Shown in pieces: positions 2,179-40,355 of a stretch of DNA of 42,259 bases; positions within the stretch are counted from its first letter, which is position 1; each line of letters begins with the position of its first letter. The DNA is from a virus: IMG/VR virus record IMGVR_UViG_3300043567_001340, positions 1-42,259 of that record; one strand, given 5' to 3'. The position numbers were made by a program, and so were the translations under genes. The notes beneath the pieces are model-generated. The model searched no databases. It was given only the letters and a program-made list of their open reading frames with translations, and was not told where the DNA came from.

Positions 2179-2189
2179 ATAAAAAAATT

Positions 2190-2906: not shown

Positions 2907-2909
2907 AAA

Positions 2910-2917: not shown

Positions 2918-2924
2918 TGTTGGA

Positions 2925-3503: not shown

Positions 3504-3853
3504 TCTTCAAATTCAAGTTTTACAGTTTTCATCATCCAAATCGGTCTTTTATTTTCACTCAGATTATTCACCCATTCTTTAGCTGAAGGTATGTAGTTAT
3601 TACAATCTTCTTTCACATGTTGTTCACCGACATACCTTGTATACACAGTTTTACCATCACTGTTCTTGAATTCAGTCCCAAAACGTTGTTCCATCTCAAA
3701 AATTCCTTCAGAATGATGTCTGAACATTCTGTGGAGAGAATCACCAAACCAACCTTTTGTTTCATCTAACCACTCGTGTAGATGTATGTAATCTTCGGGT
3801 TTACCACCAAATTTTTTTGCGGAAGATTTGGCATGTAAGTTGGGATGTGCCAT
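3500..3853 (-). CDS. Small conserved protein (DUF6915-like)
   Basis: A 117-aa protein starting MAHPNLHAKSSAKKFGG and containing HEWLDETKGWFGDSLHRMF, HHSEGIFEMEQRFG and GEQHVKEDCNNYIPSAKEW. This pattern of conserved His/Trp/Glu residues matches a small protein family common in phages and bacteria that I know as DUF6915; its function is unknown. The many ordered His and Glu residues suggest metal binding, but that is inference. It starts 15 bases after tRNA-Thr on the same strand and its stop overlaps the sulfotransferase start by 4 bases. Confidence 0.65.
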   Translation of the reverse strand: MAHPNLHAKSSAKKFGGKPEDYIHLHEWLDETKGWFGDSLHRMFRHHSEGIFEMEQRFGTEFKNSDGKTVYTRYVGEQHVKEDCNNYIPSAKEWVNNLSENKRPIWMMKTVKLEFED

Positions 3854-3867
3854 TTCAAGAAATTTTG

Positions 3868-3940
3868 AGCCAGAGACAGGAATCGAACCTGCGACCTACT
3901 GATTACAAATCAGTTGCTCTACCTGCTGAGCTACTCGGGC
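3868..3940 (-). tRNA. tRNA-Thr(UGU)
   Basis: A 73-nt cloverleaf: acceptor GCCCGAG/CTCTGGC with a C4-U69 mismatch, discriminator U, anticodon arm ACTGA-TTTGTAA-TCAGT (anticodon UGU), T-arm GCAGG-TTCGATT-CCTGT. CCA is not encoded. The acceptor mismatch is the only defect. Confidence 0.92.
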
Positions 3941-3946
3941 TTGTTG

Positions 3947-4019
3947 AGCGGAAGACCAGGCTCGAACTGGCCACCCCGACCTTGGCAAGGTCGTGCTCTA
4001 CCGAATGAGCTACTTCCGC
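3947..4019 (-). tRNA. tRNA-Gly(GCC)
   Basis: A 73-nt cloverleaf with perfect acceptor GCGGAAG/CTTCCGC and discriminator U, anticodon arm CGACC-TTGCCAA-GGTCG (anticodon GCC), T-arm GCCAG-TTCGAGC-CTGGT. CCA is not encoded after it. Its 5' end directly abuts the CCA of the 40-nt minihelix element. Confidence 0.95.
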
Positions 4020-4059
4020 TGGAGTGCAGTGGGGTCTAGAACCCCTGAGGCCACTGCAC
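4020..4059 (-). ncRNA. tRNA-minihelix-like element ending in UCCA
   Basis: Between tRNA-Asn and tRNA-Gly the minus strand can fold as GTGCAGT/ACTGCAC (7 bp, acceptor-like), an inner arm GGGG-TTCTAGA-CCCC resembling a T-arm, then discriminator T and CCA, which is directly joined to the first base of tRNA-Gly. It looks like a tRNA without D- and anticodon arms. An alternative fold extends the outer stem to 9 bp (GTGCAGTGG/CCACTGCAC) with an 18-base loop. None of the ten full tRNAs here encodes CCA, so this CCA stands out. It could be a stable RNA like T4 species 1 and 2, a processing signal, or a tRNA relic. Confidence 0.45.
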
Positions 4060-4074
4060 GTTTTATCCCCTTTG

Positions 4075-4146
4075 CGTCCTCTCATGGTCTCGAACCATGG
4101 ACCCTCTCGTTAACAGCGAGATGCTCTACCACTGAGCTAAGAAGAC
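4075..4146 (-). tRNA. tRNA-Asn(GUU)
   Basis: A 72-nt cloverleaf: acceptor GTCTTCT/AGAGGAC with discriminator G (usual for Asn), D-arm GCTC..GAGC, anticodon arm TCTCG-CTGTTAA-CGAGA (anticodon GUU), T-arm CATGG-TTCGAGA-CCATG. CCA is not encoded. Confidence 0.95.
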
Positions 4147-4150
4147 GTGG

Positions 4151-4224
<74 letters not shown>

Positions 4225-6317: not shown

Positions 6318-7985
6318 ATGAAAGTTTTAGGTTTTTCGAATGGCCACGACAAAGGAGCGGTCATAATTGAAGACGGAAGGATACTTGTGGGTATAACACA
6401 AGAAAGACTATCGAGAATCAAACACGATGGAGCTTATCAAGGTGGTAAAATCCCTTTTGAGTCAATAAACTATTGTCTGAATGCGATAGGTTGTTCGATT
6501 AGGGAGATTGATTATTTTGTATATAGTACTACGGAAAATATTGATGATGTAGAAGACCAATTCTTTTCTAAATTTTCACATATAAGTCGAGAAAAGATAC
6601 AATTCATTCCACATCATTTAGCACACGCTTACTCAACATTTTTCAGTTCGGGATTTGACGAAGCGGCTGTTGTTGTTGCGGATGCTTCAGGTAGTATCAT
6701 AACTTATAAAAATAAAACCCACGAATGGTATGACCCCAAAAAGTGGGACTTGAATCCAGATTTTGATTGGGCTGAAGGAATTTCAATTCTTCATTTAAAA
6801 AAGGACACTTATGAAGAACACTATAAAAGATGGGTAAAGTTTCCGGTTCCTTGGAATACTAATGAAGAAACTTCCTTGGGAACAATGTATTCTGAGGGAA
6901 CTCTACAATTGGTATACGAACCCGCCAATCATACTTGGAGCGCCGGAAAACTGATGGGGTTGGCATCATACGGTGACCCAAAATTGGTTTCTGAAGCACC
7001 TGAGTTTGTGAAAGAAATTGACGGGGAAATATCTCTTTTAAATAACAGCATCTACCCAAAAGTTACTTGGGCGTCAGATTTCTTTTCAAGGTCGGTTGCT
7101 GCAGGAATATATCAAAGGGAACAAGAAAGAGCTTCACTAATTTTAGCGAAAATGGCAAAAAATATGACCAATTCAAAAAACATTTGTGTTGCTGGAGGTT
7201 CTTTCTTGAATTGTAATTCTAATGAACTAATTCTGAAATCAGGTTTGTATGAAAATTGTTTTTTCTTACCTCCTGCTGATGACAGTGGTATCCCATTGGG
7301 GTGCGCATGGTATGCACTTCAGAAAGTTACAGAAATCAAAAATACTTCAAAAATTTCTCCTTATTTTGGGAGACCATACCATAAAAATGAGATTATATCA
7401 GCACTGAACGAACACCCTGAATTAGATTTCATAGAATATAAAGATTTCAACGAATTAGTTGAGCAAGTAACCTATTGGTTGACACAAAACAGAGTTATTG
7501 GGTGGTTTCAGGACGGTTCTGAAATCGGACCTAGAGCGCTTGGTAATAGGTCAATTGTCGCATCCCCAATGACCAAATGGATGTGTGGTCACATAAATGC
7601 AGATATTAAAGGTAGAGAGTGGTACCGCCCTTTCGCACCCGCAGTCCTTTACGAATATCAGAATGAAATATTCGATATGGATTATTTTTCTCCTCACATG
7701 TTAGTGACTACAACTGTGAAAGAATCCTGGAGAGAAAGAATACCATCTGTAGTTCATATTGATAATTCTGCTAGAATTCAATCTGTAACAGAAAAAAATA
7801 ATTATAAATTTTATACGCTTATTAAAAGTTTTTATGAGAAAACTCAGGTTCCTGTTCTTTTGAATACAAGTTTCAACGGGCCGAGTGAGCCAATTGTCGA
7901 AACCCCAACAGACGCAATCAAAACTTTTATTACCCGAAATTTAAATTATTTGGTTCTCAATAATTTTTTAATTTGGAAAAACTAA
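6318..7985 (+). CDS. Carbamoyltransferase, TobZ/NodU/CmcH family (copy 1)
   Basis: A 555-aa enzyme of the two-domain O-carbamoyltransferase family, which uses carbamoyl phosphate and ATP to make carbamoyl-AMP and pass the carbamoyl to a hydroxyl. The N-terminal Kae1-like domain starts VLGFSNGHDKGAVIIEDG and has the iron motif HHLAHA (residues 99-104). The C-terminal YrdC-like domain has WFQDGSEIGPRALGNRS (about 394-410), RPFAP (about 437) and LLNTSFNGPSEPIVETP near the end. All key motifs look intact. A second, divergent copy follows after 1 base. Known targets are sugars, antibiotics and, in some phages, 5-hydroxymethylcytosine in DNA; the target here is unknown. Confidence 0.9.
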   Translation: MKVLGFSNGHDKGAVIIEDGRILVGITQERLSRIKHDGAYQGGKIPFESINYCLNAIGCSIREIDYFVYSTTENIDDVEDQFFSKFSHISREKIQFIPHHLAHAYSTFFSSGFDEAAVVVADASGSIITYKNKTHEWYDPKKWDLNPDFDWAEGISILHLKKDTYEEHYKRWVKFPVPWNTNEETSLGTMYSEGTLQLVYEPANHTWSAGKLMGLASYGDPKLVSEAPEFVKEIDGEISLLNNSIYPKVTWASDFFSRSVAAGIYQREQERASLILAKMAKNMTNSKNICVAGGSFLNCNSNELILKSGLYENCFFLPPADDSGIPLGCAWYALQKVTEIKNTSKISPYFGRPYHKNEIISALNEHPELDFIEYKDFNELVEQVTYWLTQNRVIGWFQDGSEIGPRALGNRSIVASPMTKWMCGHINADIKGREWYRPFAPAVLYEYQNEIFDMDYFSPHMLVTTTVKESWRERIPSVVHIDNSARIQSVTEKNNYKFYTLIKSFYEKTQVPVLLNTSFNGPSEPIVETPTDAIKTFITRNLNYLVLNNFLIWKN

Positions 7986-7986: not shown

Positions 7987-9582
7987 ATGAGTAGAATTTA
8001 TGGTATGTTCACAGGCTCACACAGCCCGTGTATAGCTTACTTGGAAGATGGAGAAATAATTTTTTCTATAGAAGAAGAACGTTTGACTAGAATAAAGGCG
8101 GGTGATAATTACGACATTCAGGCCGAAATGTGTTTGAACAGGGCAGAGCTTGAAACCAACGTGAAATTTCATGAAGCGGATTATAGGGTTATTGCTCAGC
8201 CTGTACCCGACGAATTTTTGAGAAGAATTTCCAAAGGTAAACCTTATGAAAGGGTAAGTCATCACACCGCCCACGCTTACGGTGCATATTTTACAAGTGG
8301 ATTTGAAGGTAAAACGATAACCATAACATATGATGGCGGTGGTCAAGAATCAGTAATGAAAATTTTCCTTTGTGAAAATGGAAAAATGACCTTAGTGAAA
8401 AATATGCCATATGCTGGTTTTGCCAGCTTATCCCATTTGTGGGGTTTTAGTACGTCTAGTATGAGAGGTTATGATGAACATAATGAGGGAAAATGGAAAA
8501 TGTGTAAAGATGAGGGAAAACTTATGGGAATGGCGCCCGATGGATTTTATGATGAAAAAATATATAAAATCTTGAATTCATTAGTAAATTATGAAAATTT
8601 GAGATTTTTCCCCTCGGGTACCGCACCAAAAACACAGTTTATTTGTGATATGATGTTTGAAGATGGTTTTTTCGAAAGTCAAATAAACAAAGAAATGTTT
8701 TGTTTCAATTTACAAAAATTGACAAATGATTTGATGTTGAGATTTATAAATGATTTACACAAGTTATATCCAGAATATACAAAACTATGTTTCGCCGGAG
8801 GTCTTTTTGCAAACGTTAAACTAAATCAACACATAAACGAACTACCTTGGGTTGAGGAAGTTTACATTTTACCTCCGATGGGTGACGAGGGATTAGCTCT
8901 CGGTGCCGCAATTTTTAAATCTGTAGAATTAGGTGAATGGACTAAACCAAAACGTTTAAAAAATGTTTTTCTCGGTTCGAAGTATTCTGAAGAAAAAATT
9001 CAAAGGGCTTCAACTTCATTCAATTTTAAGAGAAGAGAGTATGATGTAAAAGAAATGGCAAGAAAAATTGCTGATGGTAATATAGTTGGATGGTTTCAGG
9101 GTGGGTCTGAATTGGGTCCAAGGGCTTTGGGTGCTCGAAGTATTTTAGTAAAACCCACAGATAAAGAAACACATAAAATTTTGAACGGGAGACTTAAAAG
9201 ATATGATACTATGCCATTTGCACCTATCGTCATGTCCGAACACTTTGATGAAATTTTCACTTGTTCTAAGTCAAAATATACTGCACAATTTATGACTATG
9301 TGTTATTCCACAAAAGAGGAGTGGATAGATAAAATTCCTGCAGTAATTCAAAAGTCAGATAAAACCGCAAGACCTCAAGTTGTTGTAAAAGAATCAAATC
9401 CTAAATTTTGGGAGATTTTAAACGAGTATTACTTGATAACAGGTATTCCTGTACTTCTGAACACTTCATTTAACTCCCACAATGAACCAATTATTGAACA
9501 TCCTCGCCAAGCATTTGAAACTTTATATAAAAAAATAATTGATGAACTCATATTAGAAGATTATGTATATTACTCTGAATAG
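7987..9582 (+). CDS. Carbamoyltransferase, TobZ/NodU/CmcH family (copy 2)
   Basis: A 531-aa relative of the preceding gene. It keeps the iron motif SHHTAHAYGAYF (about residues 88-99), YDGGG, GPRALGARS (about 373-381) and LLNTSFNSHNEPIIEHP. The conserved RPFAP of copy 1 is MPFAP here (about residue 409), so an Arg that helps bind carbamoyl phosphate or nucleotide may be lost. The two copies are clearly diverged, not a recent duplication, suggesting different substrates or a heteromeric pair. Its last 20 bases overlap the start of the next gene, which indicates translational coupling. Confidence 0.88.
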   Translation: MSRIYGMFTGSHSPCIAYLEDGEIIFSIEEERLTRIKAGDNYDIQAEMCLNRAELETNVKFHEADYRVIAQPVPDEFLRRISKGKPYERVSHHTAHAYGAYFTSGFEGKTITITYDGGGQESVMKIFLCENGKMTLVKNMPYAGFASLSHLWGFSTSSMRGYDEHNEGKWKMCKDEGKLMGMAPDGFYDEKIYKILNSLVNYENLRFFPSGTAPKTQFICDMMFEDGFFESQINKEMFCFNLQKLTNDLMLRFINDLHKLYPEYTKLCFAGGLFANVKLNQHINELPWVEEVYILPPMGDEGLALGAAIFKSVELGEWTKPKRLKNVFLGSKYSEEKIQRASTSFNFKRREYDVKEMARKIADGNIVGWFQGGSELGPRALGARSILVKPTDKETHKILNGRLKRYDTMPFAPIVMSEHFDEIFTCSKSKYTAQFMTMCYSTKEEWIDKIPAVIQKSDKTARPQVVVKESNPKFWEILNEYYLITGIPVLLNTSFNSHNEPIIEHPRQAFETLYKKIIDELILEDYVYYSE

Positions 9583-20426: not shown

Positions 20427-21581
20427 TTGAAAAAAAAATCAATTATTGACTGTTGTTTCATATACGATGAAATTGACATGCTTAGATTCAGATTTTCGGA
20501 GTTATACGATTTTGTAGACTATTTCATAGTAGTTGAATCTAACCGTGATTTTGAAGGAGAAAAAAAAGATTTCAACTATCAGACGAAACAAATTTTTTTT
20601 CAAAATTGGTCAGACAAAATTATTTATTTGAAGTGTGACATTGAATCTCATCACAAAAATACTGATATTGAATTTCAAATTCCGAAAATTCAATCAGTAA
20701 TTTCCAATCAATTGAAAAGTATGAATTTAGACTATGAGGATTATATCCTTTTCTCTGAAGTGGATGAATTACCTCCTAAGTTTAATTTGAACGATTTTGA
20801 TAAAATTTTAACTTTTGAACCAATTGCATTTTTACAGAAAAACTTCATTTGTTCTACTGAGTATGTAAACAATGAAAACCATTTGGGAACATTTTGTTTC
20901 ACCTTTTCACAATTACTTAGAGACGATAAGATTATAGAAAATCTTTATTTCAACAAAAACGTAGTTTACTCTATACATTATAGAATAATTGAAGGGGGAT
21001 TTCATTTTTCAAAATTCGGTGACGAAAAATCAATTATTAAAAAAACTAAGTTGATTGAAAAAAAGGAAATAACCTTGGAGGATATAAATAATTTCAGAAA
21101 AACTTTGAGGTATTGGGATGATACTCATCCCTTTTTTAAAAACTACGAGGGCACATTACCTAAGAACATAATGATGATTCAAAATAATTTTTTTGAACCA
21201 ATTGAATCAAAAAAAAATTTAGTCATATTAAATTACAATCAGAATTTTTTAGATGTGTCGAATTTTTCGGAATATGACTTGGTTCTGAACTTTAATTTTA
21301 CCAAATCTTATGATTACCCTCATAAAGTTATTTTACCAAATAACCTAACTAATTTTAACATTTATATACCTGAAAAGAAATTTTACGAGTCATTGAAATT
21401 TGAATTAGAATTCGGACTGAATGAAATAAAAAATATTCTAACGAAATTAAATTGCCTAAATCAAGATATTTTCGAATTTTGTATTTTTGATGAAATTCTT
21501 CACAAAGATACATCAACCAAACTCACTTGGTTTGATATAAAAAATAATCGAATTTATGACTTATTAAAAAACCCCTCATAA
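20427..21581 (+). CDS. Glycosyltransferase, GT17-like
   Basis: A 384-aa protein. The N-terminal 215 residues follow the GT17 (beta-1,4-mannosyl-glycoprotein GlcNAc-transferase-like) pattern: IIDCCFIYDEIDMLRFRF, YFIVVESNRDFEGEKK and DYILFSEVDELPP, with the acidic E-D metal motif. The C-terminal 160 residues are AT-rich, Asn/Phe-rich and unrecognised. The family motif begins right after residue 4, so the TTG at 20427 is the likely start; the first ATG (residue 18) would cut the conserved strand. It may glycosylate host surface sugars or virion protein. No promoter was recognised. A terminator overlaps its stop. Confidence 0.75.
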   Translation: MKKKSIIDCCFIYDEIDMLRFRFSELYDFVDYFIVVESNRDFEGEKKDFNYQTKQIFFQNWSDKIIYLKCDIESHHKNTDIEFQIPKIQSVISNQLKSMNLDYEDYILFSEVDELPPKFNLNDFDKILTFEPIAFLQKNFICSTEYVNNENHLGTFCFTFSQLLRDDKIIENLYFNKNVVYSIHYRIIEGGFHFSKFGDEKSIIKKTKLIEKKEITLEDINNFRKTLRYWDDTHPFFKNYEGTLPKNIMMIQNNFFEPIESKKNLVILNYNQNFLDVSNFSEYDLVLNFNFTKSYDYPHKVILPNNLTNFNIYIPEKKFYESLKFELEFGLNEIKNILTKLNCLNQDIFEFCIFDEILHKDTSTKLTWFDIKNNRIYDLLKNPS

Positions 21582-27425: not shown

Positions 27426-27512
27426 GGAGGTTTGGCAGAGCGGTCGAATGCGTCAGTCTTGAAAACTGAATTACTCGTGAGGGTAACTGGGGTTCGAATC
27501 CCTGAGCCTCCG
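27426..27512 (+). tRNA. tRNA-Ser(UGA)
   Basis: An 87-nt class II tRNA: acceptor GGAGGTT/AGCCTCC with discriminator G, anticodon arm TCAGT-CTTGAAA-ACTGA (anticodon UGA), long variable arm TACTCGTGAGGGTA, T-arm CTGGG-TTCGAAT-CCCTG. CCA is not encoded. It is the only tRNA on the plus strand, stands alone and is followed by a terminator. Confidence 0.95.
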
Positions 27513-27516
27513 CTAA

Positions 27517-29833: not shown

Positions 29834-30025
29834 ATGAAAAATTTAGTGGGATTTTTATTCCTTTTCTGTAGAATTTATTGTGGTTACAAAATATTCATGT
29901 GGTTATTCCAACGGAGTTATTATAAGAATAGTTTACCCATATCAGAAATTGAACACATATTAGTGTTCATAATTTTTGACATATGGATGATGATGTCCAT
30001 ACGAGATATAAACAAAGATTTTTAA
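29834..30025 (+). CDS. Small two-helix membrane protein
   Basis: A 63-aa protein with two hydrophobic stretches: residues 4-26 (LVGFLFLFCRIYCGYKIFMW) and 39-55 (IEHILVFIIFDIWMMMS). The upstream TATTTTTAGTTATG is a one-mismatch copy of the late-type box. No family is recognised; it could affect the host membrane. Its stop overlaps the end of the PPK2 gene by 4 bases. Confidence 0.5.
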   Translation: MKNLVGFLFLFCRIYCGYKIFMWLFQRSYYKNSLPISEIEHILVFIIFDIWMMMSIRDINKDF

Positions 30026-31125
30026 GGCCTCAAAACGGCTAAAACTTCAGGATAAACTCCCTCTAAAACTTTTTCGTTTTTACCTTCATATGGTATGTTC
30101 TGTAAAACATATCTTATTGAATTCAACCCTGAGATTCTTTTATCTTGTGAATCAATAATTACCCACGGGTGATTTACTGTTGAAGTTTTATCAAACAATT
30201 TTTCTTTGAATTCTGTGAATCTGTCCCATAAATCTTGCATTTGAGCGTCATTAGGGGAATACTTCCAATATTTTAATGGAGACTGTTGTCTCATCTGAAA
30301 TCTTCTTTTTTGAGTTTCTTTATCAATTGAAAACCATAGTTTAAAGAGATAATCTCCTTCTTTTACCAAATCGTTCTCGAAATCCTCAACGTTCTCCATG
30401 AAATCTTCATATTCTTCAGGGGTACCATATCCCATAACAGGCTCGACTAAACCTCTATTATACCAACTTCTGTCGAGGAAATTTATCATTCCTGGTTTGA
30501 TTTTGTCTCGGTATCTATTCCACCAATTTTTCCTTTCTTCGGGGTTGGGTATACCTAAAGCAATTACATTATAGTATCTTGGATTTAAATTTTCTGTAAA
30601 TTTTTTGATTGTGGAACCCTTACCCGCAGAATCTCTACCCTCGAAAACTATAATCACAGTTTTTCCCGTTTTTCTCAACCATTCCTGCATCTTCACTAGT
30701 TCAATTTGTAGAAAATATAATTCCTTCTTATAAACCTTTTTAGGTAAAATTGACGGTTCCTCGGGTTCAAATTCATAATCTTCACTTTCAGGTTCGACCC
30801 CATAACCACCTCTTTCTCTGAATTTCAAAGAGATAAGGATGTTTCTGAAATATTCTTCAATATTCTTTTTTTTATCCCCTTTTTTGAGAAGAATTTTTCT
30901 TAAACCTCTATCCACCATCTCAAAATCGATAATTCGGTCCTCCGACAATTTAGATATTTTCCAAAGTAAATTTTCTATTTTTTTGTTGTAGAGTTTCAGA
31001 AAGGTTAGAGTATCAACAACTTTTCTTAGATTGACGTTCATAAAAGGGGCATCGTTTGAAGTTTTTTTTGCTTCAGAAATCCCCATTACAATTTTTATTT
31101 TTTCAATTTCCTCGTGAATTAGCAC
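30022..31125 (-). CDS. ppk2: Polyphosphate kinase 2 (PPK2) with N-terminal extension and capsid-targeting-like leader
   Basis: A 367-aa protein. Residues about 128-367 are a complete PPK2 core: Walker A FEGRDSAGKGST (161-172), lid region GIPNPEERKNWWNRYRDK, Walker B NFLDRSWYNRGLVEPVMGY (about 215-233), YWKYSPNDAQMQDLW and VIIDSQDKR. PPK2 uses polyphosphate to phosphorylate nucleotides (NDP to NTP or NMP to NDP). The first about 125 residues are extra; they begin MLIHEEIEKIKIVMGISEAKK, a helix ending ISE-A as in the capsid-targeting sequences of the other late genes. The start is GTG; no ATG lies nearby. A TATTTATA box is 11 bases upstream. I infer a packaged, injected enzyme that can regenerate nucleotides from host polyphosphate. 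Confidence 0.85.
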   Translation of the reverse strand: MLIHEEIEKIKIVMGISEAKKTSNDAPFMNVNLRKVVDTLTFLKLYNKKIENLLWKISKLSEDRIIDFEMVDRGLRKILLKKGDKKKNIEEYFRNILISLKFRERGGYGVEPESEDYEFEPEEPSILPKKVYKKELYFLQIELVKMQEWLRKTGKTVIIVFEGRDSAGKGSTIKKFTENLNPRYYNVIALGIPNPEERKNWWNRYRDKIKPGMINFLDRSWYNRGLVEPVMGYGTPEEYEDFMENVEDFENDLVKEGDYLFKLWFSIDKETQKRRFQMRQQSPLKYWKYSPNDAQMQDLWDRFTEFKEKLFDKTSTVNHPWVIIDSQDKRISGLNSIRYVLQNIPYEGKNEKVLEGVYPEVLAVLRP

Positions 31126-31195: not shown

Positions 31196-31687
31196 ATGAA
31201 AAAGTTTCTTATTGCATTTGTATTGCTTTCATTACCCATTTTTTCTTTTACACAAGATAGAAAAGTATGTCTTTCTTCCATAGAAAATAAAATACAAATT
31301 GGACAAATGTTGGGTAATCGAAATCTAACATTTGGCTTCAAAAATGTTTTATTGGAATATCTTCAGGATAAAGATTTTGAATTGGTTGATAGTTGTAATC
31401 TTGCTAATAACAGATTACAAATTGAACTTATTTTTTTTGATGTCTTGAACACCAAAACGGGCTTCTCTGTAATTCACAAGGAAAATGATGAAACAGTATT
31501 GAGAGTGAGAGCTAAATTATTAAATGAATCAGGAAAGAAAATTAAAGAAACTGTCGTAACTGAAAAATCTTCTGAAATTTCAATGTCAACGTTGATAATT
31601 TCAGAAGGAGGTAAAATAAATCAACAATCCGTCTCAAATGTGATTAAAAAATCCTGCGAGACATTAATCAAAAATTTATTCGAATGA
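31196..31687 (+). CDS. Secreted CsgG-like small protein
   Basis: A 163-aa protein with a Sec signal peptide (KKFLIAFVLLSLPIFSFTQ, cut near residue 20). The mature part parallels the CsgG-like protein at 34459: GFKNVLLEYLQDKDFELVD matches its VANIVLEYLSDLNRFTFTE, TVLRVRAKLLNESGKKIKE matches LGLQVRFTDAETGEIVAAS, and both end in a helix like SVSNVIKKSCETLIKNL. It may be a reduced paralogue without the full pore-forming insertion. It starts the envelope island and overlaps the next gene by 4 bases. A variant box TATTTATG (31166-31173) lies 22 bases upstream. Confidence 0.55.
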   Translation: MKKFLIAFVLLSLPIFSFTQDRKVCLSSIENKIQIGQMLGNRNLTFGFKNVLLEYLQDKDFELVDSCNLANNRLQIELIFFDVLNTKTGFSVIHKENDETVLRVRAKLLNESGKKIKETVVTEKSSEISMSTLIISEGGKINQQSVSNVIKKSCETLIKNLFE

Positions 31688-33585
31688 TGAAAAAAATTTT
31701 ATCAATTATTTCATTATTGTCGATTCCGTTTTTGGGACTTGCACAATCTCCCGAAATTGGTCATTTCCAACAACTATCTACTGTGAGACGTGGAGACACT
31801 TTAGATGTGGCTTGGTATTTCAGACCATCGGGAAATAATATAAGAAGTTTCCAAGTGGATTGGCAATATAAAAAAAGGTTGTTTACTCATATTGAAACAA
31901 CGGTGGATGCTTCTCTGAATGGTAGGTCTGCAGAAATTTCCTATAGGTCATGGGAAAATCAAAAATATAGCTCTTACGCAAATGGGAACTATACCTATAT
32001 TTCCGACACCAATTGGACTGTTGGAAGAAATTACTTGGTGGTTCCCGCAGGTGCTTCAGCTTTATCAAACGGTTATATCATACATAACAAATACAAAATA
32101 AACGCAGTCATACCAAATTTCGAATCTGATTCAGTTTATGTTAACTGGGCTAGAATGTTTGATGTAAATGGCATAACAATCGGAGACAACGTGGCTGTTT
32201 TGAATAACAGAACTATGAGAGTGAAACTTCTCGGAAATCTAACAATTTCTGGAAAAGTTTGGTTACCTCCATCGGCAGTATCAAGAGGATGGGTCCCAAC
32301 TCTTTATTGTTATGAGAACGCAACAGGAAACTTGGTTTCAACCACAATACCGAACATAAACACAGGTCTATATACTCTTGATAATATCGACGAATATACA
32401 AGATATAAAATTGAATTGAGATTCAATCCTGATAGTTTGGTTTCAATAAGAGATAACTCAGTCACAATTACCGATGCGGTAAAATCTTTTAACGAATTTA
32501 TAAACGCTGATTTAAATCAAACTTATCCGAGGACACATTTACAAAACGGTTTAGCTTATTTGATTGGAGATATAAATTGGAATCAAAAATTTGATGGTGG
32601 TGACCCATATGGTATTTACGCTTCAGTTTCAGGACTAAGACCAATAGCAACAAATAGTTTAATTAAAGTTTTTACAAAAAACGAATTTGATAGTTTGGCT
32701 TTGGGTGCAAATCAATGGACAAATTGGACTACTTACTCTTCAAGATTAAATTTTGTTCTTGATACTGTAATAACTTCAAACATTACTGTTGATTTAAAGT
32801 ATTATATCCAAGGTGATGTGGATAGAAGTCACTCTTCTCCTGTTTACGATGCGAACGGTAACCTCGTAAGAGCAGCAATTTACACCGGAAGATTTACTGT
32901 TGAAATTCCAAATTCTTACTCTGTGGGTCAACCGATGTTTGTACCCTTCAACGTTTCAACAAATGGTTTAGTAAATTATGGATTACAATTTGAAATGAAA
33001 TACGAACCAACCAAAGTCAAATTTTCAGAAATTATCTCGAAAGTTCCAAACGAATGGTTACAATATGTAACACATGATGAACGTACTGGAATAATAAGAT
33101 TCGGGGGAATGAATAATCAAAAAAAGGGGGGGATAAGTGGTTTATCCACCCCCTTTAATTTAAAATTTACGCCAATAGACCCAAGCGAAGATATCTCATC
33201 GTTTGTTTTTGTTAGACAACTAATGGATGCTTCTAACTCTGAAGGAGAGCACTTCAATATTGAATTAGCATCTGAAAGAATAGTTTTGACTTATAGAGCC
33301 GCAGGACCAATACCTACATTTTCAAAACCGATTGCAGAAATTAGACCCAATCCGAACACAGGACAATTTGAGTTGACTGTAACATTTCCGAATAATTATT
33401 GGATGAAGGGTTACGTTTATGATTATCAAGGAAGAAAAGTTATGGACTTAGGAGATTTCAAAACAGATGATTTTACAAACGTAATCACAAGAGCCATTAA
33501 CGCCAAAAATCTAGCTCAAGGAAAATATTTGCTAGTTATGGCTAATAATGAACAAAGAATAACTAAACCATTTGTAAAAATTTAA
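31684..33585 (+). CDS. Secreted multidomain protein with T9SS C-terminal sorting domain
   Basis: A 633-aa protein. Signal peptide MMKKILSIISLLSIPFLGLAQ. Middle: a carboxypeptidase-like/SdrD-type strand region (SGKVWLPPSAVSRGWVPTLY), dockerin-like IGDINWNQKFDGGD, then a cohesin-like module (VGQPMFVPFNVSTNGLVNYG, FEMKYEPTKVKFSEI). Residues about 550-633 are a type A T9SS sorting domain: IRPNPNTGQFELTV, VYDYQGRKV, LAQGKYLLVM and KPFVKI at the end. The T9SS exists only in Bacteroidota, so this protein should reach the surface of the infected host. A canonical A-AAA-AAG slippery site with a hairpin lies at codons 479-481. Paralogous in part to the protein at 36627. Confidence 0.8.
   Translation: MMKKILSIISLLSIPFLGLAQSPEIGHFQQLSTVRRGDTLDVAWYFRPSGNNIRSFQVDWQYKKRLFTHIETTVDASLNGRSAEISYRSWENQKYSSYANGNYTYISDTNWTVGRNYLVVPAGASALSNGYIIHNKYKINAVIPNFESDSVYVNWARMFDVNGITIGDNVAVLNNRTMRVKLLGNLTISGKVWLPPSAVSRGWVPTLYCYENATGNLVSTTIPNINTGLYTLDNIDEYTRYKIELRFNPDSLVSIRDNSVTITDAVKSFNEFINADLNQTYPRTHLQNGLAYLIGDINWNQKFDGGDPYGIYASVSGLRPIATNSLIKVFTKNEFDSLALGANQWTNWTTYSSRLNFVLDTVITSNITVDLKYYIQGDVDRSHSSPVYDANGNLVRAAIYTGRFTVEIPNSYSVGQPMFVPFNVSTNGLVNYGLQFEMKYEPTKVKFSEIISKVPNEWLQYVTHDERTGIIRFGGMNNQKKGGISGLSTPFNLKFTPIDPSEDISSFVFVRQLMDASNSEGEHFNIELASERIVLTYRAAGPIPTFSKPIAEIRPNPNTGQFELTVTFPNNYWMKGYVYDYQGRKVMDLGDFKTDDFTNVITRAINAKNLAQGKYLLVMANNEQRITKPFVKI
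33120..33156 (+). other. Candidate -1 ribosomal frameshift site (A-AAA-AAG plus hairpin)
   Basis: In the 31684 frame the codons are CAA AAA AAG GGG, so A-AAA-AAG (33120-33126) is the dnaX-type slippery heptamer in the correct frame, within a run A7G7. Downstream GGATAA (33131-33136) pairs with TTATCC (33142-33147) around GTGGT, 4 bases after the heptamer; the stem can extend with GGGGG/CCCCC and AAA/TTT past one bulged A. A -1 shift would add 10 codons and end at TAA (33156-33158), giving about 491 residues without the T9SS sorting domain. An internal terminator or slippage of the A7G7 tract are other readings. Confidence 0.5.
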
Positions 33586-33590
33586 AAAAA

Positions 33591-33914
33591 ATGTCAGAAG
33601 AAACACAAGTACAAGACCAAAACGACGGAACATGGTCGGGTCTTAAAAAAACAATCGTAGGTACCCTCGGAACTGTTGTAACAGGTGGAGGTGTATGGTT
33701 AGGAACATTACTTTATGGTGGAAATCATGAGGAAAAACAACCTGATGCACCCGTCCAAGCACAACCAACAATCGTAATCAACAACTCTCAACAACAAGCA
33801 ACACCTGCGGGTGGAACTACTAAAGTTATCGAGCGTGTTGTGGAAAAACCTGCAGCAAAACCTGCTGAACCAGCTCCTAAACCAAAACCTTTCCAAGAGG
33901 AACCAAAATGGTAA
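33591..33914 (+). CDS. Small membrane protein with Pro/Ala-rich periplasmic tail
   Basis: A 107-aa protein: short acidic N-terminus, one hydrophobic segment (about residues 20-43, TIVGTLGTVVTGGGVWLGTL), then a Gln/Pro/Ala-rich tail (VEKPAAKPAEPAPKPKPFQ). The layout recalls spanins and TonB-like periplasm-spanning proteins, but no coiled coil or lipoprotein partner is seen. It lies 5 bases after the T9SS protein and 3 bases before the holin-like gene, so a part in lysis or envelope work is likely by position. Confidence 0.6.
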   Translation: MSEETQVQDQNDGTWSGLKKTIVGTLGTVVTGGGVWLGTLLYGGNHEEKQPDAPVQAQPTIVINNSQQQATPAGGTTKVIERVVEKPAAKPAEPAPKPKPFQEEPKW

Positions 33915-33917
33915 TGT

Positions 33918-34457
33918 ATGCAACCAAACACAGGATTTAAGGAGTTATTAAACTCCATGATGAAAAGAAGATGGTGGATTACCGCCTTAGTGTTAGGTGG
34001 ATTTGTCGTAATTATGGGTGCCATATTCATGGCAATTTTCGAACAAAGTGCTATCAGTGGTGAATGGAAAGAATTACTTCTCCTTTTACTTGGTGCTTTC
34101 ATCGGGTCTTATGGTAAAATCATTGACTATTGGTTCAGTGATACCGACAAAGACAAAATGTTAGTCCAAAAGATGGATGAAGAAGATGGTGTATCATTTT
34201 CCAACACCCAAGATGGTAGTGTTCAAGCACCTCCACAACAACAATCTATTACCCCCCAAGTCACCCCTCAAGTTACCCCTCAAGTCGGTGTAGAAATCGA
34301 TGAAGATGGTGATGGTATCATGGATGGTATTGACGAGGATGGTGATGGAGTTATAGACATGTATTTTGAACATCGTCAGTGTGAGCACGTATGGGGTGAC
34401 GCTGATGGAGATGGTGATGAAGAGTGTCTTAAATGTGGTTTGATTAAACAAGATTAA
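33918..34457 (+). CDS. Holin-like membrane protein with calcium-loop and zinc-knuckle tail
   Basis: A 179-aa protein. N-terminal half: basic start (GFKELLNSMMKRRWW) and two membrane helices, about residues 20-41 (ITALVLGGFVVIMGAIFMAI) and 51-70 (WKELLLLLLGAFIGSYGKII), as in class II holins that open the inner membrane at lysis. A spacer with three TPQV repeats follows. Then come EF-hand-like loops DEDGDGIMDGIDEDGDGVID and DADGDGDEE, and Cys/His pairs HRQCEHVW..ECLKCGL that could hold zinc. The tail is unusual for a holin and may sense calcium or anchor cell-wall material. The endolysin lies about 3.6 kb downstream. Confidence 0.6.
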   Translation: MQPNTGFKELLNSMMKRRWWITALVLGGFVVIMGAIFMAIFEQSAISGEWKELLLLLLGAFIGSYGKIIDYWFSDTDKDKMLVQKMDEEDGVSFSNTQDGSVQAPPQQQSITPQVTPQVTPQVGVEIDEDGDGIMDGIDEDGDGVIDMYFEHRQCEHVWGDADGDGDEECLKCGLIKQD

Positions 34458-34458
34458 A

Positions 34459-35175
34459 ATGAAAAAAATTTTATTTCTAACTTCTTTGTTTCTAACGTCT
34501 GCGGTTTATTCTCAGACGTTAGGGACTACGAAGACTGAGCAGTATAAGGCTAGCTTCGAAACAAAAATCAATATCGACTCACTTATGGATTATGATGGTC
34601 CTCAAGTACCAATTCAAATCCTTACTATCGGTATAAGTGATGAGGTTTATGAGCAGTATCCTGAACTAAAGGAGAAAAAGGTTGGACTCGGTGTTGCAAA
34701 CATTGTTTTGGAGTATCTCTCTGACCTCAACAGATTTACATTCACTGAGGATAAGACGGAGATAAAAAACAGAATGGTAAAGCAGTTCCAAGCGTCTCAG
34801 GCAGGTATTAGTCAGGACAAGTTGGACGGTAGAGGAAAGATTAGACTTGCACATTATTTTGTGACTGTGGAGGTTTATGACTTTTCTGTATCAGAAGATG
34901 AGACTGTAAATCTAAAGGATGGGGTAAAGAATACTGTCAATACAAGACTTGGTCTTCAGGTAAGATTTACAGATGCTGAGACAGGTGAAATTGTTGCGGC
35001 AAGTGGTCTCGGTGAAGCTAAGACTGTTAGAGAACTTACACTTCTCAATGATGATAATTTGAGTGAAGTAAAATTCAACCAATCTACAATTGGTATAACA
35101 ACAAAGAAGGCTTTGGACATTGCATGTTCAAGAATTCTTGTAAGACTTATCAAAAAGGGTAAGTTTCCGAGATAA
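34459..35175 (+). CDS. CsgG-family outer-membrane secretion channel protein
   Basis: A 238-aa protein with a Sec signal peptide (KKILFLTSLFLTSAVYSQ) but no lipobox Cys, unlike E. coli CsgG. Family features: KKVGLGVANIVLEYLSDLNRFTF with the following helix TEIKNRMVKQFQASQAG (the CsgG 'ERQGLQNLLNERK' region), AHYFVTVEVYDFSV, and LGLQVRFTDAETGEIVAAS, the hallmark strand pair. CsgG forms a nine-fold channel that exports curli subunits. No curlin-like subunit is seen here; candidates for export are the T9SS and lectin proteins beside it. It starts 1 base after the holin-like gene and ends against the next start. CsgG relatives have been noted in some marine myoviruses. Confidence 0.75.
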   Translation: MKKILFLTSLFLTSAVYSQTLGTTKTEQYKASFETKINIDSLMDYDGPQVPIQILTIGISDEVYEQYPELKEKKVGLGVANIVLEYLSDLNRFTFTEDKTEIKNRMVKQFQASQAGISQDKLDGRGKIRLAHYFVTVEVYDFSVSEDETVNLKDGVKNTVNTRLGLQVRFTDAETGEIVAASGLGEAKTVRELTLLNDDNLSEVKFNQSTIGITTKKALDIACSRILVRLIKKGKFPR

Positions 35176-36630
35176 ATGTGGAAAAGATTAAAAACATTTT
35201 TAAGTATTTCCTTTATCTTGTTTCTCAGCTTCAAAGCTGAGGCACAAAATGTTGTCTATACATTCATCGACCCCTGCACAAAAGAAGTAACAAACTTTTC
35301 AATTCCAATTCAAGGGGGTACGGTAGTATATTTTTATGGTCGTTCGGCATCATTTACCGCACAAGATGTGGCAAGTGGTGCCTTTGCCGCTTGGGTCAAT
35401 CAAGCATATGCCGATTACAGAAAATTGACCCCATGCTCAGTTCAATCGGTTACAGTTACAAGAAATCAAATTACAGCACAAGTTATCGGTAATGTTGTTA
35501 GTAGTGTTGTGGGTCAAATAAATTCCTCTGTGATGCAGGGTTCATCTATGGGTGGAAACGACGCAGCATCCAAAGGAAGTAACAGCAGTTCAGAAAAGAA
35601 AAAAAATAAAAATGAAAGTAGTAATTCTAGCAATTCCACTTCTGTTACTAATTCTAATGGGAATGGTTCTACAAGTTCATCAAATAACTCAAGCGGTCAA
35701 GGCAACGGGTCTGTTCCTGTGGGAGGTTCTCAAACTGGTGGCCAAGGTTCTCAAACTGGCGGTAATAATAGTGGGGGGAGCGGTAATAATAACACTGGTG
35801 GGAATGGTGGCGGTGGTGGCGTATCTTCAAATTCTAATTCGGGAGGTAGTGAGAAAGATAAGGAAAAAGGTTCGGAGGTAGTTGCAACAACCCTAATGAA
35901 CGTAGAGGTCAGAAACGACAAAGGTTCTGAAAGTGGTGGTTCGAGTGGTGGAGGAAAAAAGGGTAATGGAAAATCAGGAAACCAAAATCCTCTTATCGTT
36001 TCTTCTGATTTGACCTCAGCACAAAATTTAGATAAATCTTTTACTGGTATTGCAAACATCGGAATGTCAAGAACCTCTCTTATGGGAACAAGTTCTTGGG
36101 GTGTAACAGGAATGGTTTGGTTTAACTTCAAACAATTTGCAATCAACTCAAGATACACCAAGATAAAAATGAATCAATCAGGAACCCTCAAATTCGTTCA
36201 TAACGTCAATTTAACGGGGGCATATTCCTACGGTAACGTATTTTCATTCTTGGGTTATAGTATGATAATAAACGCAAAGAAATGGGGTATTACAGGATTT
36301 AACGTCAGTGGAGCAATTGCAAAACTACCATCGGATAGTAATTTGTTTATCAGTCCGTCATTTACCGCATTTTATACGAGACCATTTTCACCCAATAAAA
36401 AACTTACAATATCTCCTGAAATTTATTTAATATCAACTCCCGTTGTTTATTCTTCTGTAGATAAAATCACCGTGACAGATAGAACATTTAGTGCTTTTTT
36501 GGGAAGTGGATTTGATTATCAAATTTCAAGGAGGTTCAAGTTCAACGTAAATTACAAAGCCAATCTTTCAACAAATCCTGACTTTCCAATCCTTTCCTTT
36601 TTTCTAATTGGTAGTAAAGTAAATCTATGA
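35176..36630 (+). CDS. Outer-membrane beta-barrel protein with Ser/Gly/Asn-rich linker
   Basis: A 484-aa protein with a signal peptide (SISFILFLSFKAEAQ, cut before NVV). Residues 24-115 form a small domain with two Cys (YTFIDPCTKEVTNFSIP, KLTPCSVQSVTV). About 120-275 is a low-complexity Ser/Gly/Asn linker. About 290-484 is a beta-barrel-like region of amphipathic strands (WGVTGMVWFNFKQFAINSRY, FVHNVNLTGAYSYGNVFSF) ending in ISRRFKFNVNYKANL and FLIGSKVNL. It probably sits in the outer membrane with the first domain exposed. No family is recognised. The gene overlaps the next one by 4 bases. Confidence 0.65.
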   Translation: MWKRLKTFLSISFILFLSFKAEAQNVVYTFIDPCTKEVTNFSIPIQGGTVVYFYGRSASFTAQDVASGAFAAWVNQAYADYRKLTPCSVQSVTVTRNQITAQVIGNVVSSVVGQINSSVMQGSSMGGNDAASKGSNSSSEKKKNKNESSNSSNSTSVTNSNGNGSTSSSNNSSGQGNGSVPVGGSQTGGQGSQTGGNNSGGSGNNNTGGNGGGGGVSSNSNSGGSEKDKEKGSEVVATTLMNVEVRNDKGSESGGSSGGGKKGNGKSGNQNPLIVSSDLTSAQNLDKSFTGIANIGMSRTSLMGTSSWGVTGMVWFNFKQFAINSRYTKIKMNQSGTLKFVHNVNLTGAYSYGNVFSFLGYSMIINAKKWGITGFNVSGAIAKLPSDSNLFISPSFTAFYTRPFSPNKKLTISPEIYLISTPVVYSSVDKITVTDRTFSAFLGSGFDYQISRRFKFNVNYKANLSTNPDFPILSFFLIGSKVNL

Positions 36631-38066
36631 GAATAATTTTTACCATATTATTTTCTTTCATTTTTTGTTTTGGATTTTCACAATCTATTTCCGCTCCTGT
36701 TGGTAGAACTTATCAAATCAACACTTCGGGTCAGGATGCTAGCGGATTTATTGTAAATGGTTTTACCTCTGAAACACTACTTACTTCAGTAGGGCTCGTA
36801 AATCCTCCCGCAGGTGTAACATTTTCAATAACAACAACAGCAGGATTATCCTTCGCAACAGGGTATAACAGTTGGTCCAATATTACGAGAATCAGTTTTA
36901 CAGGTACCCAATCGAATATCAACAATGCATTGGCTTCTCTAAAGATAAACACAGGTTCATCTACAGGTAATGTACAGATATCCGTCTCAACTACTGTAAA
37001 TCCATCAGGGTATTACTATAACGCGACAAACGGACACTTTTATCGTCCCATTTCAGGTACCTCAACATATACTGCAGCGAAAAACGCTTCTGCAACGCAA
37101 ACATTCAAAGGTCAAACAGGTTATCTGGTTACAATAACATCACAGGATGAACAGAATTTCATAGGTGCGAACGTACCTGGAAACAACATTTGGATAGCCC
37201 TTTCCGATAGACTTCAAGAAGGTTATTGGAGAGTAGATGCAGGACCTGAAAATGGTACTTTAATCAATATAGGAAACTACAACGGTAATCCGCAAGCAGG
37301 GACTTATCAAAATTGGTGTGGTGGGGAACCTAATGATGCTGGCGGTGAGGATTATGCAGTCACAAAATGGGGTGGTGGAAATTGTTGGAATGATTTACCG
37401 GATGGAGCTGGTTGGACGAGTGGGTATGTTGTGGAGTTTGGTACTTGGTCAAATCCCTCTGATGCTACATTCACAGAATATTATGCAGCCAATACAATTA
37501 ACATGGTTGCGGTTACAAATACTCTCAGCGGAACAATATCTATTCCGACGTTATCCACACTACCGACGGTAACTTTATACAGAATTGTAAATGGCTCTGA
37601 TGTATTAGTGGAGACCAAAACAGTTTCATCATCAGGTTCTTATTCTTTCACTCTTCCCGCACAGAACTCAACTTATAAATTGGTACCTAATTTAAGTGTT
37701 CAAGGAATTACAACGGCAGATTTCAATTTAGCATTTCAAGAGGTACAAAATGTAAATACCCCAAATAATACTGCGCCTGGATTAGTGATGACGGGAACAA
37801 AACAATGGAAAGCAGCAGATTTCAATCAGAATGGAATTTTGGATTTGGGTGATTCTTATTTAATCTTGTCTCACGTTACTGGATTTAGACCCTCAACACA
37901 AGTTTTGTGGTTCTCACCAACCAATTATGATTCAATAACCAAAAATAATTTTGGAACAATACAACCTGTCACCTTTTTTACAATTTCCGTGACAACATCA
38001 AACGTGACTCAAAACATAAAATATTGTGTTTTGGGGGACGTAAATTTATCTCACTCGTCTCAGTAA
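36627..38066 (+). CDS. Secreted C-type-lectin-domain protein
   Basis: A 479-aa protein with a signal peptide (IIFTILFSFIFCFGFSQS). Residues about 130-275 are a C-type lectin domain: GHFYRPISGTSTYTAAKNAS, GYLVTITSQDEQNFI, WIALSDRLQEGYWRVDAG, NWCGGEPNDAGGEDYAV (EPN sugar/calcium motif) and CWNDLP (WND). The last 180 residues parallel the middle of the T9SS protein at 31684, including dockerin-like ADFNQNGILDLGDSYLIL and the final CVLGDVNLSHSSQ against YIQGDVDRSHSSP. It stops there and so lacks the cohesin-like module and T9SS domain. It may bind host or neighbour-cell glycans. Confidence 0.8.
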   Translation: MRIIFTILFSFIFCFGFSQSISAPVGRTYQINTSGQDASGFIVNGFTSETLLTSVGLVNPPAGVTFSITTTAGLSFATGYNSWSNITRISFTGTQSNINNALASLKINTGSSTGNVQISVSTTVNPSGYYYNATNGHFYRPISGTSTYTAAKNASATQTFKGQTGYLVTITSQDEQNFIGANVPGNNIWIALSDRLQEGYWRVDAGPENGTLINIGNYNGNPQAGTYQNWCGGEPNDAGGEDYAVTKWGGGNCWNDLPDGAGWTSGYVVEFGTWSNPSDATFTEYYAANTINMVAVTNTLSGTISIPTLSTLPTVTLYRIVNGSDVLVETKTVSSSGSYSFTLPAQNSTYKLVPNLSVQGITTADFNLAFQEVQNVNTPNNTAPGLVMTGTKQWKAADFNQNGILDLGDSYLILSHVTGFRPSTQVLWFSPTNYDSITKNNFGTIQPVTFFTISVTTSNVTQNIKYCVLGDVNLSHSSQ

Positions 38067-38068
38067 TA

Positions 38069-38076
38069 TATTTATA
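38069..38076 (+). promoter_or_regulatory. TATTTATA box (putative late promoter) of the endolysin gene
   Basis: Plus-strand TATTTATA, two bases after the stop of the lectin gene and 16 bases before the endolysin ATG at 38093. Confidence 0.5.
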
Positions 38077-38092
38077 GAAAAAGTAAATTACT

Positions 38093-38932
38093 ATGCTACT
38101 AAAAGTGGGGTCTAAGGGAGAAGACGTAAAAAAACTCCAACAAAAACTTGGTTTGGGTGCTGATGGTGTTTTCGGAAAAGGAACCGAAGAATCAGTTAAA
38201 AACTTTCAAACAAAATCAGGATTGACTCCTGACGGAATTGTGGGTGAACAAACTTGGCAAAAAATTATGGGTCAAGGCGTTCTTATTACAGAACCCGCAC
38301 CTGTCGCTCAAGTGGCTCAACCTGTTGCTAACGTGGGTGGTTTGAAATTAGAAAAATTGAAAGGTCATATTCCTGATAATGTAATTGCTCAAATACCTGA
38401 TACAGCAAAAACTTTTGGTATTGACACCCCATTGAAACTTGCTCACTTCTTGGCTCAATGTGGTCATGAGTCGGGTGGATTCAGACTTACTCAGGAAAAT
38501 TTGAACTACTCAGCACAAGGTCTAAAAAACATTTTTCCAAAATATTTTCCAGGAAATCTTTCAGAGTCATATGCACGTAACCCTCAGAAGATTGCATCCA
38601 AAGTTTATGGTGGTAGAATGGGTAATGGACCTGAATCAACAGGTGAGGGATTCAAATTCAGAGGAAGAGGTTACATTCAGCTCACAGGAAAAGACAATTA
38701 CACGGCTTTCGGGAAAGCTATAAACGAAGATATTACAGGTAATCCTGATTTGGTCTCATCGAAGTATCCTCTGTTGTCAGCTGCGTGGTTTTTCAGTAAA
38801 AACTGTCTAAAGAAATGTGTGGATGACTCAAATGCAACAGTTACGTCTGTTACAAAGTGTGTGAACGGTGGAACTATCGGATTACCAGACAGATTGAAAC
38901 ACTTTAAAGAATACTATAATTTGTTAAAATAA
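38093..38932 (+). CDS. Endolysin: peptidoglycan-binding domain plus GH19 chitinase-like domain
   Basis: A 279-aa enzyme without signal peptide. Residues 1-60 are a PG_binding_1 domain (KGEDVKKLQQKLGLGADGVF, GIVGEQTWQKIMG). After a short Pro/Ala linker, residues about 95-279 are a GH19-type lysozyme: LAHFLAQCGHESGGF with catalytic Glu126, GEGFKFRGRGYIQLTGKDNY, and the C-terminal CVNGGTIGLPDRL. It would hydrolyse peptidoglycan glycan strands once the inner membrane is opened, presumably by the holin-like protein at 33918. A late-type box lies 16 bases upstream and a strong terminator downstream. Confidence 0.92.
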   Translation: MLLKVGSKGEDVKKLQQKLGLGADGVFGKGTEESVKNFQTKSGLTPDGIVGEQTWQKIMGQGVLITEPAPVAQVAQPVANVGGLKLEKLKGHIPDNVIAQIPDTAKTFGIDTPLKLAHFLAQCGHESGGFRLTQENLNYSAQGLKNIFPKYFPGNLSESYARNPQKIASKVYGGRMGNGPESTGEGFKFRGRGYIQLTGKDNYTAFGKAINEDITGNPDLVSSKYPLLSAAWFFSKNCLKKCVDDSNATVTSVTKCVNGGTIGLPDRLKHFKEYYNLLK

Positions 38933-40166: not shown

Positions 40167-40355
40167 ATGAAAAAATTATATAGAAGTACTATCGATAAAA
40201 GAATAGGTGGTGTTTGTGGCGGTCTTGCAGAGTATACAAATAGTGACCCGACAATTTGGAGAATACTTTTTTTGGCTTTAATTTTTGCACCCTTCCCTAC
40301 CGTACTATTTTATCTTTTAGCCTGTATTGTTATCCCTCAAAACAAAATTTTATAA
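40167..40355 (+). CDS. PspC-domain membrane protein
   Basis: A 62-aa PspC domain: KKLYRSTIDKRIGGVCGGLA, then EYTNSDPTIWRILFLALIF and a second hydrophobic stretch (FPTVLFYLLACIVIP). PspC proteins sit in the inner membrane and take part in the phage-shock/envelope-stress response; a phage copy may buffer or sense membrane stress during infection. Length is that of a single stand-alone domain. It lies in an operon of small early-type genes. Confidence 0.88.
   Translation: MKKLYRSTIDKRIGGVCGGLAEYTNSDPTIWRILFLALIFAPFPTVLFYLLACIVIPQNKIL

Follow-up and report, generated by a model that had tools for sequence, protein, structure and literature searches.

Positions 31196-38932 of IMG/VR virus record IMGVR_UViG_3300043567_001340, a stretch of 42,259 bases referred to here as the window, contain eight plus-strand open reading frames (ORFs A-H), the first seven of which make up a module that recurs in diverged viral loci. 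It includes a secreted protein with a predicted CsgG-superfamily fold (E) and a shorter paralogue (A), a predicted outer-membrane barrel (F), a C-type lectin (G), and a protein carrying a type IX secretion system (T9SS) sorting tail (B). We tentatively favor the view that this phage-encoded envelope module alters the surface of infected Bacteroidota cells and displays a lectin complex there, and would put this at a little under an even chance.

Gene content and conservation of the module

The eight ORFs fill the interval with gaps of 0-26 nt or 4-nt overlaps, as follows:

A, 31196..31687, plus strand: small secreted protein, paralogue of E, with a Sec-type N-terminus judged by eye
B, 31684..33585, plus strand: secreted multidomain surface protein with an N-terminal part, a dockerin-like part, a GDVDRSHSS junction, a cohesin-like domain, and a T9SS C-terminal sorting domain
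C, 33591..33914, plus strand: single-transmembrane (TM) protein with a Pro/Gln-rich tail predicted to be periplasmic
D, 33918..34457, plus strand: two-TM-like protein with, in this clade, an acidic D.DGDG tail and a C.H...C..C motif
E, 34459..35175, plus strand: secreted protein with a modeled CsgG-superfamily fold
F, 35176..36630, plus strand: secreted protein with an N-terminal domain, a helix, a low-complexity linker, and a modeled 12-stranded outer-membrane barrel
G, 36627..38066, plus strand: secreted C-type lectin that ends GDVNLSHSSQ and whose C-terminal part may be dockerin-like
H, 38093..38932, plus strand: endolysin with a peptidoglycan-binding domain and a glycoside hydrolase family 19 (GH19) domain

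A sequence-only reading of the window had listed seven consecutive, tightly spaced plus-strand genes here; their places, strand, and spacing are as described, and the count is eight ORFs, with seven preceding the endolysin. Its five proteins with Sec signals are A, B, E, F, and G; Sec-type N-termini were judged by eye. C and D have hydrophobic stretches. Scripted signal-peptide calls were discarded as non-discriminating, most C and D proteins also being called signal-bearing. At the threshold used for the PHROG comparison (E-value <=0.001) A-G gave no family match, and no Pfam family was found for C.

Relatives were collected by protein searches with E. The best 80 of 551 viral stretches were kept from a search with the window E, and the best 80 of 113 from a second search with the E of Flavobacterium phage vB_FspM_immuto (hereafter immuto); the two sets may overlap, and with the best matches kept the most distant E relatives lie outside the sample. 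Per-gene profiles were run on the ORFs of 161 loci (labeled with L numbers below), which were thinned by E similarity to 52; 41 of these have at least 8 kb on each side and form the flanked set, from which the other 11 were excluded. The B and G profiles overlap and their letters are interchangeable, the union of B or G being the safe count.

Near E in the flanked set, A, C, and F are each present in 40 of 41 loci, G in 36, B in 34, D in 24, and H in 21, and a B- or G-type protein is found in 40. A is absent from L078, and C and F from L044; some of the distant ORFs assigned to F, in L073, L075, and L078, could represent different barrels. Clustered module genes in the thinned loci always share the strand of E, and orders that recur among the 161 loci include ABCDEFG(H), GBBCEFA(H), BCEDFAGH, BCEFGAH, and AGGCDEF. 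F starts directly after E in the window, and in 38 of 51 loci its start is no more than 130 nt past the end of E, with D sitting between the two in eight loci. Each of 20 long records has C, F, and G no more than 9 kb from E; A is that close in 19, B in 17, and D in 15, and E is single-copy in all 20.

Judged from substitution rates, the module genes are under purifying selection, with ratios of nonsynonymous to synonymous rates (dN/dS) of 0.03-0.40 in 20 of 24 gene comparisons against three relatives, the other four being saturated. Mean column identity, on samples that differ from family to family, is 71% for E (45 sequences, L148 omitted), 45% for D, 32% for both A and B, 28% for F, and 19% for G, making E the most conserved of the six families aligned. 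Because the gene set and its strand recur in diverged loci and dN/dS is low, we regard A-G as a conserved module and not a chance row, and the envelope-gene island proposed from the window alone is borne out by this comparative search for the gene set.

Of 50,697 phage records E matches four, all of them immuto (51.7% identity), the one named phage species with the module. Its proteins are annotated as lectin, cohesin-domain, and hypothetical proteins, E being among the last, and its module is located between replication/nucleotide genes and tRNA genes. Searches of named phages by tblastn with the window copies of C and D gave no match, yet immuto does have C. The host of immuto is a Flavobacterium, and from this host together with the T9SS tail we infer that the phages carrying the module infect Bacteroidota. 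A scan of species genomes with two peptide patterns found E in 3 of 27 candidate stretches, all contigs of metagenome-assembled genomes (MAGs), one of them labeled Sphingomonadaceae and possibly mis-binned; with no more than these three contigs from the scan, the family appears to be specific to phages. There are E relatives in hundreds of viral stretches, and the same neighbors are mostly present in the 161 loci inspected. The window is probably a piece of a larger phage; a relative with an E 93% identical and the same genes sits in contigs of 317 and 321 kb (L012 and L013).

Predicted structures of E, A, and F

Structure prediction of the gene product starting at 34459, which the sequence-only reading had suggested as a check, does find a CsgG fold. 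The E model (predicted local distance difference test score, pLDDT, 75.5; predicted template modeling score, pTM, 0.70) has CsgG as its best fold match, both by Foldseek (4uv2_P, E-value 7.9e-7) and by VIA (Z 11.7), and the top three VIA superpositions have root-mean-square deviations of 3.3-4.4 across 147-172 residues. The next matches are Cj1090c, PelC (Z 10.1) and others, FlgT, and LptE, with TraT lower (Z 7.2-7.3). A, which is shorter than E, is its paralogue (hhalign probability 96.7%, E-value 3.8e-10). The description of both as CsgG-like thus holds for the fold of E and the kinship of A, and does not extend to family membership: neither window protein matches PF03783 at E-value <=1. The same family gave no match in six module-bearing records (five long contigs and immuto), the control phage HTVC008M scoring 180.4 bits, and none in the four records of a further scan. 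E aligns with Flavobacteriaceae CsgG at an hhalign probability of 7.6% (E-value 0.0046), and searched by sequence against the PDB its profile returns just chance-level HtrA matches.

The signal of window E ends ...AVYSQ with no Cys, and no lipobox is present. Read by eye, a Cys stands at or near the cleavage site in about five of the 52 thinned E sequences (L098, L099, L100, L107, and L148), and some E relatives may be lipid-anchored; the output of a crude script that called 20 of the 52 lipoproteins was rejected on this reading of the letters. A CsgG subunit has two transmembrane beta-hairpins; the monomer model of E shows a single long hairpin (133-152, 155-172), charged at its tip, and a loop of low confidence at 198-204. 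Since E lacks both the CsgG sequence signature and a lipobox and its hairpin is charged at the tip, we consider a PelC-like periplasmic ring likelier than a pore, and the CsgG channel proposed for this cassette is not supported.

PelC is a CsgG-fold lipoprotein that works with a separate outer-membrane barrel, PelB. The module resembles this pair in combining a CsgG-fold protein with a separate barrel, and differs from it in the missing lipobox of window E; no polysaccharide genes were noticed. The likeness to the curli (type VIII) clusters of pelagiphages and phage Melnitz is that the gene of an exported CsgG-fold protein lies near other envelope genes. The CsgG of pelagiphage HTVC008M, however, is the PF03783 match used as control above and has CsgF and a curlin-associated gene annotated next to it, whereas the module has neither PF03783 nor a curli partner family (no CsgE, CsgF, or curlin Pfam family among the eight cassette proteins at E-value <=1) and instead includes a separate barrel, a T9SS-type protein, and a lectin.

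The outer-membrane barrel with its linker, noted earlier from the translation of F, is recovered in the F model (mean pLDDT 66.2, pTM 0.50), which comprises an N-terminal domain at ~25-84, a helix at 88-123, a stretch of pLDDT <50 at 118-266, and a barrel of twelve long strands at 273-482, the model having two short strands besides. Cys 34 and Cys 87 do not vary across 36 sequences. The best Foldseek match is FapF (5o65, E-value 3.6e-6), and VIA places NalP (Z 22.5) and EspP (22.1) above FapF (18.2) and the sugar porins KdgM (17.9) and NanC (16.3). The matches listed for F do not include PelB, and families beyond those listed may match it too; F has no Pfam family at E-value <=1, and a BFVD search returned assorted phage outer-membrane-type barrels and nothing more specific. 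As in FapF and the type V autotransporters, a 12-stranded barrel is preceded by a helix, a linker, and a small N-terminal domain; F differs in lacking a Pfam family and in the ~150 low-confidence residues that part its helix from the barrel. On the strength of the model, the F barrel is a likely channel and a better candidate for one than E.

Surface proteins and the sorting tail

The Pfam cut-offs that apply to B and G are 27 bits for Por_Secre_tail, 24.1 for cohesin, 22.6 for Lectin_C, and 22.9 for Dockerin_1. Window B scores 26.5 bits for the tail, just under its cut-off, and 13.5 for cohesin, under its own; in five B-type relatives scanned the tail is above cut-off in three (34.6, 35.2, and 44.3 bits) and cohesin in two, L138 and immuto (36.7 and 42.0 bits). 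The B family profile matches the PDB chain 8glk_D (E-value 1.1e-6) over the tail part, and the ScaH dockerin (E-value 0.0025). A fused T9SS-type tail is present in 38 of the 52 thinned loci by a profile of our own, nine loci of this count having helped to build it. The sorting domain assigned to B in the earlier reading is upheld by these relatives.

Window G scores 27.3 bits for Lectin_C and has both EPN and WND in its sequence, confirming the C-type lectin domain recognized from these motifs. Among relatives, the immuto G is over the cut-off (57.3 bits) and the L035 G under it (16.6 bits), the G family profile matches C-type lectin chains with a best E-value of 1.6e-22, and EPN and WND occur together in 34 of 46 G proteins. 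No reverse-transcriptase match, the mark sought of a diversity-generating retroelement acting on the lectin, was found in 8 of 8 records. A T9SS tail was not found on window G. We gave up the notion of G as a shortened B copy, since in several loci G proteins terminate at the same GDxxLSxSS site (a pattern fitting 11 of 46, other G proteins ending elsewhere). The C-terminal part of G is weakly dockerin-like, with a loose dockerin pattern fitting 32 of 46. Immuto encodes the lectin, a second protein, and the cohesin with its tail as three separate proteins, an arrangement that would fit their meeting in trans. The scheme is reminiscent of cellulosomal cohesin-dockerin display, with a cohesin on the anchored protein in some relatives and a dockerin-like stretch on others; it differs in dockerin scores that are below cut-off or absent and in an anchor that is a T9SS tail or a lipoprotein, and the pairing is putative.

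In 11 of the 14 loci without a fused tail, one or two lipoproteins of 109-124 residues are encoded between B/G and C (L049, L055, L064, L069, L071, L072, L074, L075, L078, L079, and L081). L075 carries two such ORFs, and the tail of L081, a stand-alone ORF, is excluded from the fused count of 38. The other three loci are L044, which has no B or G, L098, a short contig starting near E, and L100, with a cut B. Thirteen of the lipoproteins, from ten loci, were compared and form three subgroups, which match one another at 96-98%. The best subgroup (five proteins, including that of L081) matches the tail profile with 90.7% probability and the other two with 14.9 and 32.5%, the controls C, D, and A reaching at most 0.2%; the L081 lipoprotein scores 26.8 bits for Por_Secre_tail. 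Because the best subgroup matches the tail profile, the subgroups match mutually, and the controls do not exceed 0.2%, it seems that in these loci the sorting-tail domain has been transferred onto a lipid anchor.

Phage proteins with T9SS C-terminal tails are known from Cryophage, where three variable genes are concerned, and from crAss-BACON cluster 2, where the proteins lie near the head section (PMC7468147, PMC6949934). Here, instead, the tail is one element of an envelope module of several genes that recurs from locus to locus, and it seems to shift onto a lipoprotein.

Possible roles and neighboring genes

If the module does remodel the cell surface, Sec would export A, B, E, F, and G, and the host T9SS would carry B onward to the cell surface, where its cohesin would hold the lectin G through the dockerin-like part and so form a surface lectin complex. 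E and A would form a periplasmic ring under the F barrel or bound to it, in the style of PelC and PelB, C would tie this ring to the inner membrane, and A, C, E, and F could act as a trans-envelope export or assembly unit. The use would be altered binding at the surface, most likely the blocking or masking of receptors against a second phage and less likely the holding together of cells or particles; superinfection exclusion and adhesion are guesses as to purpose. TraT, a lipoprotein acting against conjugation, has a fold related to that of E and offers a parallel for an exclusion role, at a score that is below those of CsgG and PelC and in the range that VIA calls common. The phage-built surface display proposed earlier is thus retained in part: the conserved unit, the fused tails, the lectin motifs, and the F barrel model speak for it, and the CsgG channel is the part given up.

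Several observations weigh against a surface-display role. Window E has neither a lipid anchor nor a CsgG sequence signature, and a 12-stranded barrel is a common fold that does not prove export, F also matching sugar porins. The cohesin of window B is weak (13.5 bits), the B proteins of L011 and L079 have no cohesin match, and that of L079 has no tail. EPN and WND are absent in 11 of the 41 flanked loci. Dockerin_1 is not matched in the G of the window or of immuto and scores 16.9 bits in the L035 G and 19.1 in the L138 B, both under the cut-off, and the ScaH dockerin match belongs to the B profile, not to that of G. L044 keeps E, D, and a short fragment of A without B, C, F, or G, so E may function without the rest of the module. 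With the endolysin next to the module in this clade, a role in lysis would fit as well.

A more specific proposal, possible and distinctly less probable than surface remodeling in general, is that a CsgG-fold ring of E and A, the separate FapF-like F barrel, and C as a tether to the inner membrane constitute a phage-specific surface-assembly machine that finishes or exports a lectin scaffold borrowing the host T9SS, the sorting tail being exchangeable for a lipoprotein anchor. Were this so, phages would be maintaining a hybrid whose parts are type VIII-like, type V-like, and type IX and which gives the infected cell a new surface.

A role in lysis is unlikely, and is the best placed of the alternatives to a surface function. 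D, with a second two-TM protein in relatives, would be the holin and H the endolysin, C, E, A, and F would breach the outer membrane in place of spanins, and the surface proteins would be passengers. H is an endolysin as previously called, with Pfam matches to PG_binding_1 (50.5 bits) and Glyco_hydro_19 (36.6) and to the endolysin family phrog_181 (E-value 1.9e-64), and it ends the gene row, directly following G here and in several other gene orders. It lies within 8.5 kb of E in 21 of the 41 flanked loci, and between D and E in L048, and a second small two-TM family, often beside E, is present in 30 of the 52 thinned loci. For the CsgG of phage Melnitz a lysis role, likened to that of a pinholin, has been proposed (PMC9004378).

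Against lysis stands the position of the endolysin in relatives. A GH19 match is found in 19 of the 20 long records, within 12 kb of E in nine and farther away in ten, a count on which the endolysin was also dropped as a fixed part of the module. All 20 of these records have C and F no farther than 9 kb from E, and 19 have A there, and for this difference we rank surface display above lysis; the new lysis route envisaged in the sequence-only reading is weak because the endolysin is so often distant from E. D is absent near E in 17 of the 41 flanked loci, and no holin or spanin family was matched in the Pfam scan of the cassette or in the D family. The label holin-like given earlier to D is accordingly unconfirmed, D showing two hydrophobic stretches and no holin Pfam match in 27 members. 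Nor has lysis an evident use for the lectin, the cohesin, or the T9SS tail.

Less probable again is that the lectin complex makes infected cells sticky, aggregating them or fixing them to polysaccharide such that progeny would be more likely to find hosts. The C-type lectin G, the adhesin-like parts of B, and the resemblance of the E and F models to the bacterial amyloid export parts CsgG and FapF are in its favor, and for pelagiphage curli the capture of siblings has been proposed, along with uptake and superinfection protection (PMC7029224, PMC9599517). The cassette proteins include no curlin, CsgE, or CsgF family, and the authors of the Melnitz work saw no clumping with that system (PMC9004378).

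That the module serves uptake, with F as a porin and E and A as accessories bringing nutrients or ions into the infected cell, is improbable. The likeness of F to KdgM and NanC and a TonB-dependent-receptor-like gene in the neighborhood of some loci would suit it, but the receptor-like gene is in only 3 of the 12 loci listed, and the lectin, the cohesin, the T9SS tail, and the constant presence of A and C are left unexplained. C-type lectin folds serve in some phage receptor-binding proteins, and the products could on that ground be tail or capsid parts serving adsorption; this is the least credible option, since five export signals and a T9SS tail would route them out of the cytoplasm where virions are assembled, the immuto module lies between replication/nucleotide and tRNA genes, and A-G match no structural PHROG at the threshold given above (the baseplate match of G, E-value 0.17, being at chance level).

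The combination of a CsgG channel with a T9SS-routed protein had been called undescribed in phages. Its two halves are each published, phage CsgG/curli clusters (PMC7029224, PMC9004378, PMC9599517) and phage T9SS-tailed proteins (PMC7468147, PMC6949934); of the combination, or of this module, a literature search found no report, most subscription journals and bioRxiv preprints being outside its coverage. If a surface structure is built, infected cells would carry phage lectins, with a bearing on co-infection and attachment, phages would be using host type IX secretion purposefully, and the module would be a second, separate case of phage CsgG-fold proteins, the question of their purpose dating back to the reports on pelagiphage curli. 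As immuto is in culture, the idea can be put to a direct test.

Several other genes are found around the module. The second two-TM, holin-like family (NEKSVVGF...) occurs, for example, at L055 9629-9925 and L064 9754-9990, with weak Pfam matches below cut-off. A whole TonB-dependent-receptor-like gene (plug and outer-membrane protein barrel) is located near the module at L055 12684-15164, L075 12618-15098, and L078 6431-8707; the L055 copy also has CarboxypepD_reg, the L075 copy was assigned by likeness, and in L078 a lipoprotein-like ORF lies behind it. A small secreted-looking protein with an HExxH-like HESRH/HESKH motif is encoded near the module in 15 of the 52 thinned loci, as at L115 7118-7570 (minus strand) and L152 14190-14651, the latter without a Pfam family. 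The flanks of L082 (9935-10510, 91.1 bits) and of ten other thinned loci contain a secreted-looking DNA/RNA non-specific endonuclease gene.

Within the window, a polyphosphate kinase 2 gene (30022-31125, minus strand, 239.1 bits) lies directly upstream of the module and divergent from it, and such a gene is present in 26 of the first 81 loci. Shortly past the module, at 40167-40355, is a small membrane protein with a PspC domain (81.1 bits). Farther away are two adjoining Nol-like carbamoyltransferases (6318-7985 and 7987-9582) and a glycosyltransferase family 17 gene (20427-21581, 64.3 bits), and ten tRNA genes are located in 685-4224 and 27426-27513, nine of them in one minus-strand region.

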